Part shown: one piece after another, positions 12,755-23,458 of the stretch
Layout: the number at the start of each line of letters is the position of its first letter
Position numbering within the stretch: position 1 is the stretch's first letter
Source: a virus
Length of the DNA stretch: 23,458 nt
Virus record (IMG/VR): IMGVR_UViG_3300031772_000294
Coordinates: 1 to 23,458 of that record
Direction: 5' to 3' (one strand)
Notes under the pieces: model-generated
Database searches by the model: none
Told to the model about the DNA's origin: nothing
What the model saw: the letters and a program-made list of their open reading frames with translations, nothing else
Made by a program: the position numbers and the translations under genes

Positions 12755-13645
12755 ATGACAGACTATAAATTGTCTAAAGTTGGGGTTGACACGGGAGCCC
12801 TCACAGACGAAGAAGCCCGCTACATCGACACTCAAATCATAAAAGTCGTTCGACCAATTCTCGTCGGACGCCAAATATTCTCAGCTGTCAGACTCCCAGA
12901 CGCCGGATATCGCACCTGGAGACAGTTCAGCGAAACCGATATGAGTGCAGCCGCAATCGACATGGACGGCATGAACGCAGCAATGGATAGGGTCGAGTTG
13001 ACGTCGAAAGACATCACAATCCCGATGATTCATAAAGACGTAAAACTGTTCAGACGAGACATCCTCGCAAGCCGCCGAGGAGGCCTACCACTTGATGCAA
13101 TCAACATCGACAACGCAAGTCGAAGGATCGCAGTCGACGAGGACAAGCTTCTCATTTCCGGCGAATATACTGGTTGGAGAGCCCTCGGGATAGAAGGACT
13201 CGCAAACGCTACCGGACGAAACACTCAAGCAACCGCTGGAACCTGGGGAACCATTGCTAACATCTACACCGACGTCTCAGCAGCCATAACCAAACTCGAA
13301 GAAGACGGACACTATGGACCTTATGACATGCTCCTCAGATCAGCGCTCAACACTCGTTTGAGACAGCTGGCGACAAACACCGATAGACTCGTGAAAGAGT
13401 CCATTCAAGCGATGCTTGGAGGCAAGATCTTCGTCACTGACAGCCTTTACTCCAGCGCCGGAGCCACAACCAGCGTTCTCGTCGTAGAGAACAAGCCTGA
13501 AAACTTCCAGATTGGAGTAGCTGAAGACTTGCAGACAAACACTTTCATCGACCAAGACATGAACACGGTCCTCAAGATCTTCGAGACGCTAGCGCCGAGA
13601 ATACGTCATCCCCTAGCGATCTGTGAGCTTACGGGCGTCAGTTAA
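12755..13645 (+). CDS. Major capsid protein, HK97 fold, encapsulin-like
   Basis: A 296-residue protein starting at ATG 12755. The opening DEEARYIDTQIIKVVRPILV is reminiscent of encapsulin and related compact HK97-fold proteins; the middle VELTSKDITIPMIHKDVKLF plus LASRRGGLPLDA resembles the E-loop and start of the spine helix; FVTDSLYSS and the C-terminal LKIFETLAPRIRHPLAICEL fit the A-domain and P-domain ends. The size is normal for a capsid protein without a large N-terminal delta domain, consistent with a separate scaffold gene. A pyrimidine-rich terminator candidate follows. Confidence 0.83.
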   Translation: MTDYKLSKVGVDTGALTDEEARYIDTQIIKVVRPILVGRQIFSAVRLPDAGYRTWRQFSETDMSAAAIDMDGMNAAMDRVELTSKDITIPMIHKDVKLFRRDILASRRGGLPLDAINIDNASRRIAVDEDKLLISGEYTGWRALGIEGLANATGRNTQATAGTWGTIANIYTDVSAAITKLEEDGHYGPYDMLLRSALNTRLRQLATNTDRLVKESIQAMLGGKIFVTDSLYSSAGATTSVLVVENKPENFQIGVAEDLQTNTFIDQDMNTVLKIFETLAPRIRHPLAICELTGVS

Positions 13646-18654: not shown

Positions 18655-19047
18655 ATGGGTTCAGGACCGTTTAACGGAAAAGACGGCATCCTTAAAATAG
18701 CGACCGTTGCTGTCGGATACATCAAAAACGTCAATCTGGATATGACTGCGGAAGAAATCAAAGAATACGTGTGGGGCTCAGATAAGCCGAGCGTTCTGAA
18801 AAGCGGAAACAAAAGCTTTGCCTTCGACGCAGATCTCATCTACGTCGACTCAGTACATATGAAACAGGTTCTCGCTGGGACCGAGGTTGATATTGCCGTT
18901 TATCCCGAGGGAGTCCTTGCCGGAAAACAGCTTTACACCGTCAACAGCGCAAAGCTTCTGCATTGGGGTTATGCTCACCCACAAAACGGAGTTATACTCT
19001 CAAGGATCTCCGGGACTGGAATGGATATCACGCCAAGCAACCAGTAG
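18655..19047 (+). CDS. Major tail tube protein
   Basis: An in-frame start at 18583 would run into the previous gene. ATG 18655, 11 bases after AAAGGAG (18637-18643), gives 130 residues. The sequence is beta-rich (ATVAVGYIKNVNLDMTAEEI, YVWGSDKPSVLKSGNKSFAF, VDIAVYPEGV, SAKLLHWGY) and resembles the single-domain tail tube fold, whose hexameric rings stack into the tail. The terminator candidate after it and the chaperone and tape measure genes that follow are the standard order. Confidence 0.68.
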   Translation: MGSGPFNGKDGILKIATVAVGYIKNVNLDMTAEEIKEYVWGSDKPSVLKSGNKSFAFDADLIYVDSVHMKQVLAGTEVDIAVYPEGVLAGKQLYTVNSAKLLHWGYAHPQNGVILSRISGTGMDITPSNQ

Positions 19048-19116: not shown

Positions 19117-19521
19117 ATGCAAAGTGAAGAGGAAAAAATCAAACAATTCCAAAAAGAAATCGAAGAGTTTGAAAAGAAACAAGCCCAGAAGGCCGAGATC
19201 TTCGATCCGGTGCAAATCATCAAAGACGCCGGAGAGATCCATATTCTCAAGGATCCCAAACTAGGAGTCATCCGGTACACTCCGCTGACAAATAAGGACC
19301 TTTTCGCTATCAACAAGATCCAGGACAAAGAAGCCCGGACTCGAGAGATAATCTTTCGACTGTTGCACAAGGCGAGCCCAGAGCTCAAGGTCCAAGACGT
19401 TGATGAAATGCCCATGGCAATAACGACGAGACTCCTGGAGCTCCTGGTCGTGGATGAGGATTTTTTAAAGACCTCAGCAAAGTTGGCGAATGGATCGAAG
19501 CAAGCAAAGACGCACAAGTAA
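19117..19521 (+). CDS. Tail assembly chaperone, short form (G-like)
   Basis: ATG 19117; 134 residues in the zero frame. It starts with a charged coiled coil (EEEKIKQFQKEIEEFEKKQA), then a compact domain (VIRYTPLTNKDLFAINKIQD, EIIFRLLHKAS). In lambda-type phages the short chaperone binds the tape measure protein and recruits tube subunits. Here the frame contains a heptamer T-TTT-TTA at 19461-19467, after which the last 17 residues are low in structure (TSAKLANGSKQAKTHK), as expected for a tail read only when no frameshift occurs. Confidence 0.75.
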   Translation: MQSEEEKIKQFQKEIEEFEKKQAQKAEIFDPVQIIKDAGEIHILKDPKLGVIRYTPLTNKDLFAINKIQDKEARTREIIFRLLHKASPELKVQDVDEMPMAITTRLLELLVVDEDFLKTSAKLANGSKQAKTHK

Positions 19522-19646
19522 TAGGCCTGATTGCTCAGGTCTACGGGTACACGCTTGAAGAAATAGGAAAACTGACGCCTCTCCAAACCGCTTTTCTCGT
19601 CAAATCCTTCGACTTCTGGACGCAAGTTTTCAATCGGAGACGCTGA
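19117..19646 (+). CDS. Tail assembly chaperone, long -1 frameshift form (GT-like)
   Basis: Slippage by -1 at 19461-19467 joins residues 1-117 to 59 more codons (19467-19643, stop 19644-19646), giving about 176 residues. The downstream frame has no start of its own and reads as sound protein: KDLSKVGEWIEASKDAQVIG, then YGYTLEEIGKLTPLQTAFLV and WTQVFNRRR. It ends exactly before the tape measure ATG (19647). The G/GT pair with -1 frameshifting is a well-known feature of tailed phages; this is the same design in an apparent archaeal virus. Confidence 0.8.
19461..19467 (+). promoter_or_regulatory. -1 ribosomal frameshift site T-TTT-TTA
   Basis: The codons GAT TTT TTA in the zero frame provide the X-XXY-YYZ heptamer TTTTTTA, allowing both tRNAs to re-pair after a -1 shift. 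The overlap between zero-frame stop (19521) and the -1 frame is open throughout. I could not establish a downstream pseudoknot or hairpin by eye. Confidence 0.78.
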
Positions 19647-20990
19647 ATGAGTCAACCTGAAATCGAGATCCTAGTTTCCGCTGTTGACAAAGCGACAGCT
19701 GCAATCAAAGAGATAGGAAACAAGATCGACGGTTCAATGGATAAAATCAACACGGCAAACTCGAAGGTCGATGCTTCAAACAAGAAGGTTGAGGCCTCCG
19801 GGAAGCAAGTCGCCCTCGCATTCAACAATGTAGCAACGAGTGGAATGGCTCTCTATAATGCGATCGACCGAGTCCAGGACATGCAAGTCCAAGTCGACAA
19901 GGCCAATCTCGCCGTCAAATCAAGCCTCAACAGTCTCGAGGATGCTCAGACACGATACAATAAAACCGTCGAGAAATTCGGGATCCTCAGTCCCGAGGCG
20001 ACGGCTGCTCTCTCAGATCTGCAGATCGCCCAGGAGCGACACACACTCGCCCAATCAAAAGCCGAGGTTATGCAAGGCAATCTCAATGAGGCAATGGTCC
20101 AGAGCGCTCTCACCGTGATCCCGAGCCTAATCACCATGATAACAAGCGTCATGACGATCTCAACGTCCTGGACCGCTGTCACGCATGGAGTCTCAGGGGC
20201 TCTCAGTTTTCTGGCTGCAAACCCGATTATTCTGGTCATCGCTGCGATCGCAGCCCTGGTCATCGGCCTGATATGGCTCTATAACAACTGTCAAGAATTT
20301 CGAGACCTCATAAACACGATCGGAGCATATCTCGGAGGAGCCTTCAAAGCAGCTTTCGACGGGCTCGTTTGGCTCTGGAATAATTATTTTGCTCCAGCTC
20401 TTGCAGCGATCCGCAGCGGGCTCGAGTGGCTCTGGAATAACATTCTCGTCCCTCTAGCAAACTATCTCGTCGGCACGTTTGTCGCAGCCTGGAACACTCT
20501 TGGCAATGCGATCTCCTGGGTTTACAACACGCTCATTAAACCTATTTTCGACGCCTTGAACTGGGCATACAACAACATCCTCAAACCGATTGCAGACTTT
20601 CTCGGAGGAATAGCCTCAGCAGCACAAGGAGCAATTAACGCCGTCACCGGAGTCGGGAAAGCCGCTGGACCTTTATCAGTACCAGGTATGCCGCTCTCTT
20701 ATCCAGGTCGTCAAAAAGGAGGGATTGTCACGAGCCCGCAACTCTCCTGGATCGGCGAGGCTGGACCCGAGGCAGTAATTCCGTTGAGCGGTCCCTATAT
20801 GCCAAGGGGGCTCGGAGGAGTCACGATCCAGGGTCCTCTTATCTACGTTGCCGGCAATATGGACGACGCTATCGTTGATAAAACAATCGTCAAGCTCGAA
20901 AGAGTGCTTGGAAGTGTCCTAGTGGAGAACTCAAGTTCTGGAGCTCTCACAACTCACAAAAGAATCAGATACGGATCTCAGAGGAGATAA
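19647..20990 (+). CDS. Tape measure protein
   Basis: ATG 19647; 447 residues. Residues 1-150 are helical and coiled-coil (LQIAQERHTLAQSKAEVMQG). Two hydrophobic segments follow (about 153-172 and 187-212, PIILVIAAIAALVIGLIWLY). Residues about 225-330 carry Trp-rich repeats (LVWLWNNYFAPAL, LEWLWNNILVPLA, ISWVYNTLIKPIF, LNWAYNNILKPIA). The end has the GGIVTSPQLSWIGEAGPEAV motif typical of tape measures. It sets tail length and helps DNA enter the cell. At roughly 1.5 angstrom per residue, a tail of around 65 nm would be expected, fairly short for a siphovirus. Confidence 0.85.
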   Translation: MSQPEIEILVSAVDKATAAIKEIGNKIDGSMDKINTANSKVDASNKKVEASGKQVALAFNNVATSGMALYNAIDRVQDMQVQVDKANLAVKSSLNSLEDAQTRYNKTVEKFGILSPEATAALSDLQIAQERHTLAQSKAEVMQGNLNEAMVQSALTVIPSLITMITSVMTISTSWTAVTHGVSGALSFLAANPIILVIAAIAALVIGLIWLYNNCQEFRDLINTIGAYLGGAFKAAFDGLVWLWNNYFAPALAAIRSGLEWLWNNILVPLANYLVGTFVAAWNTLGNAISWVYNTLIKPIFDALNWAYNNILKPIADFLGGIASAAQGAINAVTGVGKAAGPLSVPGMPLSYPGRQKGGIVTSPQLSWIGEAGPEAVIPLSGPYMPRGLGGVTIQGPLIYVAGNMDDAIVDKTIVKLERVLGSVLVENSSSGALTTHKRIRYGSQRR

Positions 20991-23331: not shown

Positions 23332-23458
23332 CTCTAGGGTATCTGAGGCAAATCAATATATTAAGTGTTGTTTTCTGTGTTTTGGGAGAGGGAAGTTGAA
23401 GGATTGGCGCCGGAAATACGAGTACGGTGTCACTCGAGGCGAGGTTCAGGCTTTTGTC
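23332..23458. repeat. Right copy of 127-bp terminal redundancy
   Basis: Exact repeat of 1-127, containing the divergent promoter and the beginning of a second, truncated copy of the integrase frame. This copy should be removed when the genome is drawn as a circle. Confidence 0.95.

Follow-up and report, generated by a model that had tools for sequence, protein, structure and literature searches.

The slippery site of phage lambda is G_GGA_AAG. In the lambda G/GT system, a short tail assembly chaperone and a low-level -1 fusion are produced from a locus before the tape measure gene (PMC5009743). In phage P2 (gpE and gpE+E'), a T6 site, T_TTT_TTG, lies in phase (GGT TTT TTG) in the zero-frame chaperone gene; the -1 extension is unstarted, its stop overlaps the start of the tape measure gene (gpT), and the tail tube gene lies upstream (PMC3931495). 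Among haloarchaeal viruses, a -1 heptamer is predicted in the gene pair upstream of the tape measure in HVTV-1, HCTV-1, -2, and -5, and Hardycor1 (PMC5009743, PMC7911831), and a +1 shift is predicted for the same gene pair in HSTV-2 (PMC5009743). Besides these haloarchaeal predictions, a 2021 review counts one experimentally reported archaeal -1 programmed frameshift, that of fucA1, the alpha-L-fucosidase gene of the Thermoproteota archaeon Saccharolobus solfataricus (PMC8211752).

The viral record analysed here (the window) comprises 23,458 bases. Positions 1-127 and 23332-23458 form an exact 127-bp direct repeat, indicating that the unit is about 23,331 bp long and probably complete and circular or terminally redundant. 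An integrase-like ORF (weak match) spans the end-to-end junction. The other recognisable genes encode terminase, portal, protease, capsid, tail tube, and tape measure, and the window contains no tRNA genes. The major capsid protein (12755-13645) fits the encapsulin family Linocin_M18 (Pfam, E = 9e-30) more closely than it fits most families of phage capsids. The chaperone locus sits between the tail tube gene (PHROG 1407) and the tape measure gene, with the following features.

18655..19047, + strand: probable major tail (tube) protein (match to PHROG 1407, major tail protein, with E = 6e-4; gene order shared with relatives).
19117..19521, + strand: zero-frame tail assembly chaperone (putative "G" product), 134 aa (ORF; match to Phage_TAC_7 below the cut-off; purifying selection).
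19461..19467, + strand: slippery heptamer T_TTT_TTA in zero-frame phase (kept in four related viruses and most Bathyarchaeia copies).
19464..19470, + strand: overlapping in-phase heptamer T_TTA_AAG (also in virus _000228, absent in _000227).
19458..19646, + strand: -1 frame ORF (putative "T" domain), 59 post-slip codons (free of start codons; TGA at its end; pN/pS).
19117..19646, + strand: deduced -1 fusion (putative "GT"), 176 aa (bases 19117-19467 in the zero frame, followed by 19467-19643 in the -1 frame).
19647..20990, + strand: tape measure protein, 447 aa (matches to several PHROG tape-measure families, best E = 3.5e-16).

At the seam the zero-frame codons read GAT TTT TTA AAG, which places T_TTT_TTA in phase at 19461-19467, as the sequence-only reading had stated. 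The -1 frame is bounded upstream by a TGA at 19455-19457, has only sense codons between 19458 and 19643, and ends with the TGA at 19644-19646, directly followed by the tape measure ATG at 19647-19649. The same reading had described the post-slip part as 59 codons that lack a start and end at this ATG, and the whole -1 ORF is indeed devoid of ATG, GTG, and TTG. The + strand of the window has a single TTTTTTA, the one at the seam, and the two strands together have two (3.0 expected); TTA is the rarest leucine codon in the window's genes (19/519). In-phase X_XXY_YYZ heptamers are found at 9 of the 5544 codon positions in these genes, two of them at the seam (19461 and 19464), and the chance of one in-phase hit within the overlap of ~20 codons is about 3%. 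Therefore, the case for frameshifting rests on the relatives.

Two close viral relatives, IMGVR_UViG_3300032046_000228 and _000227, have deduced fusions 86% and 80% identical to that of the window and retain T_TTT_TTA, the -1 frame, and the adjoining tape measure start. At the position of T_TTA_AAG, _000227 reads TTTTTTAACA, with loss of the second heptamer. Viruses 3300044799_000643 and 3300048762_000473 (~35% identical) also retain T_TTT_TTA and both frames. The conservation that had been proposed as a check is thus found in four related viruses, in which the downstream frame remains unstarted rather than being a separately started gene. The tape measure start is overlapped or directly adjoined by the -1 stop in several relatives, and the window's deduced fusion can be aligned over its full length with those deduced from 10 further sequences.

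Comparison of the window, _000228, and _000227 gives pN/pS values of 0.15-0.22 for the zero frame. For the -1-only part, the values are 0.28, 0.29, and 0.18 in the -1 frame against 1.2-5.4 for the remaining two frames, indicating that the -1 frame is selected as protein. Values for the 17-codon overlap itself are noisy and uninformative.

The virus had been called "apparently archaeal", and relatives of both its capsid and its chaperone do lie in Bathyarchaeia genomes. A capsid relative is present in an assembly named Candidatus Bathyarchaeota archaeon palsa_989, which also carries a chaperone copy with T_TTT_TTA, where the zero frame stops almost immediately after the site. A profile search of 257 Bathyarchaeia genomes yields clear chaperone copies in G005, G057, G089, G091, G092, G118, and G148; a weaker copy was found later in G034, and a search of 398 genomes of the phylum Thermoproteota added three genomes from a small second class. 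One G057 contig (C1) carries two chaperone copies and an archaeal 16S rRNA gene, indicating that the chaperone copies lie in archaeal chromosomes. Judging by these relatives, the host of the window itself is most likely a Bathyarchaeia archaeon. At least four chaperone copies of three distinct types are present in G092 (contigs C30, C107, C133, and C152), which suggests several proviruses. In two loci of the second Thermoproteota class, L061 (2018-3337) and L067 (2022-3323), both in reverse-complement coordinates, the frameshifted chaperone is immediately followed by a gene for a P-loop ATPase-like protein (GESGGGKTTLLKAF), and no recognisable tape measure stands there.

An in-phase X_XXY_YYZ heptamer is found in the overlap in all 13 distinct lineages that have a -1 ORF (lineages grouped by inspection). 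The site is T_TTT_TTA in the window's clade, G001, G002, G005, G057, the first type of G091/G092, and the second and third types of G092; T_TTT_TTG in G148; A_AAT_TTT in G118; A_AAT_TTC in G268/G296; C_CCT_TTC in G275; and C_CCT_TTA in G034. The product of the per-lineage chance probabilities, calculated from the window's own motif rate, is ~10^-19, a figure that assumes independence and is overstated by shared ancestry. The representatives are only 23-38% identical to the window, and the letters of the site differ among them; the Y position is U in every site of the Thermoproteota set. Two loci (L030 and L048) read GGG TTT TTT A, and G_GGT_TTT and T_TTT_TTA overlap in phase there. The sole relative without a -1 ORF, that of G089, also has no in-phase site in the region and serves as a natural negative. 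By its sequence, this relative is one that has lost the -1 domain, and its slippery site is gone too. Its chaperone ORF (L034, ~1486-1854, reverse complement) directly overlaps the tape measure ORF (1823 onward).

Two other causes of the conservation were considered. A constraint on the amino acids Phe-Leu is rejected, as the dipeptide encoded there is Asn-Phe, Pro-Phe, or Pro-Leu in other lineages, and an archaeal T-run terminator is unlikely, as four lineages are without the run.

Taken as a whole, the locus is very probably a tail assembly chaperone cassette expressed via programmed -1 ribosomal frameshifting. Most ribosomes would complete the 134-aa, G-like zero-frame protein. In a minority, the Phe- and Leu-tRNAs paired with TTT TTA would shift back jointly by one base to TTT TTT; these ribosomes would then read on in the -1 frame and make a G-T fusion of 176 aa that extends as far as the tape measure start. 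If the products act as in lambda and P2, the short form may coat the tape measure and the fusion may recruit the tail tube protein, and tape measure translation could in addition be fed by ribosomes that have completed the fusion. The occurrence of the shift, the direction of causation, the frequency of the shift, and the roles of the two products are all inferred. The pattern X_XXY_YYZ is kept while its letters, the encoded peptide, and the run length vary, consistent with tandem slippage of the P- and A-site tRNAs. The case that archaeal ribosomes slip at T_TTT_TTA, drawn from comparison of the genes, is strong but indirect. Peptides VGEWIEASK and DAQVIGLIAQVYGYTLEEIGK are deduced for the -1 domain and LLELLVVDEDFLKDLSK (one missed cleavage) for the seam, while LLELLVVDEDFLK is the same in the zero-frame product and the fusion and so is uninformative for the shift.

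The fusion could also arise at the level of RNA, if the polymerase inserted an extra T into the T6 run and some of the mRNAs then encoded it. Such a run is present in the window and most relatives, and one extra T gives exactly the -1 frame; the product would read Asp-Phe-Phe-Lys instead of Asp-Phe-Leu-Lys. However, all T-type members have a run of exactly six, with no longer case, and in the four lineages with A_AAT_TTT, A_AAT_TTC, C_CCT_TTC, and C_CCT_TTA no run exceeds three or four bases. Sites such as A_AAT_TTC and C_CCT_TTC would not be expected if the polymerase slipped on a run of T, and the conserved long homopolymer by which a transcriptional slippage site is recognised is absent from the set. 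We consider transcriptional slippage improbable.

Still less probable is that the -1 frame is a gene of its own, translated alone from a non-canonical start or by re-initiation, with no fusion made. ATG, GTG, or TTG codons do occur inside the -1 frame of some relatives, and in G034 start codons are located upstream of the slippery site, as an exception. However, these codons are lacking altogether in the window, _000228, and one copy from G148, the first start in most other lineages is at least 13 codons past the heptamer, inside or after conserved positions, and the phased heptamer would be left unexplained. The prospect that an error in the T run splits one normal gene can be set aside almost entirely, because, although homopolymers are error-prone, the same arrangement recurs in independent viral contigs and many genome assemblies, some of them without a long homopolymer.

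For programmed ribosomal frameshifting, the reading we favour, no shared stimulator is found: folding of 50-nt and 80-nt segments downstream of the heptamer, done for 15 sequences, gives no consistent signal of a stem-loop or pseudoknot, with z from -2.0 to +1.7 against dinucleotide shuffles. No Shine-Dalgarno-like stimulator common to all is obvious by eye; G-rich stretches are present in the window (GAGGA) and G268 (GAAGGAG) and absent in G001, G005, G057, and G118. The slippery site appears simple, without a stimulator structure. It is possible, though we hold it only tentatively, that tailed viruses of Thermoproteota share a lineage-wide, stimulator-free -1 device with UUN in the A site (X_XXU_UUZ), reflecting properties of archaeal Phe and Leu tRNAs. 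If so, these sites would be the broadest natural set of -1 sites in TACK archaea.

The deduced fusion matches Pfam Phage_TAC_7, the family of P2 gpE and Mu gp41, with E = 7.3e-4 and 20.0 bits, below the curated cut-off of 25, and the family profile matches 2 of 11 members at E up to 0.1. Compared directly with P2 E+E' by profile, the fusion falls short of significance (P = 0.18 with hhalign; E = 0.016 with hmmsearch, for one target), with the seam in register. Structure models (pLDDT 69 and 72) have several tail assembly chaperones among their viral fold matches, none with E < 0.1; Foldseek of the models against the PDB gives no match, a search of solved structures gave nothing useful, and tblastn of the fusion in the phage collection gives no match. 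By analogy, the protein would work like the P2 and lambda chaperones, while membership in Phage_TAC_7 is not established.

The 13 natural, comparable sites from Bathyarchaeia and the second, small Thermoproteota class offer material for studying archaeal slippage and a possible preference for U-rich sites, and they show that viruses of archaea distant from the haloarchaea retain a frameshifted tail chaperone. Gene prediction, in which the latter half of the chaperone gene is overlooked, would benefit as well. We found no prior report of such sites in Bathyarchaeia viruses in the part of the literature covered, and frameshifting is unmentioned in the main text of PMC10848311 and PMC11705971. 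The novelty implied by the sequence-only reading is overstated, as the haloarchaeal virus predictions (PMC5009743, PMC7911831), fucA1 (PMC8211752), and the P2 site T_TTT_TTG (PMC3931495) precede it. To our knowledge, what is new is the extension of the device to Thermoproteota, the uniform U in the Y position, and the lack of a detectable RNA stimulator.

Among the archaeal precedents, fucA1 is unlike the window in being a cellular enzyme gene rather than a tail gene, with an A-rich site and a split form that is unconserved across relatives (PMC8211752). The haloarchaeal virus sites share the position upstream of the tape measure with the window, but their Y position is A, whereas it is U in the window's set, and their hosts are haloarchaea (PMC5009743, PMC7911831). 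The claimed G/GT-type logic stands, in that the position and arrangement equal those of lambda G/GT (PMC5009743), although no sequence similarity to lambda is detected. The locus is closer to P2 E/E+E', with which it shares the in-phase T6 site in the zero-frame chaperone, the unstarted -1 extension ending at the tape measure start, and the tail tube gene upstream (PMC3931495); it differs from P2 in a heptamer that ends in A and in a host that is probably archaeal.
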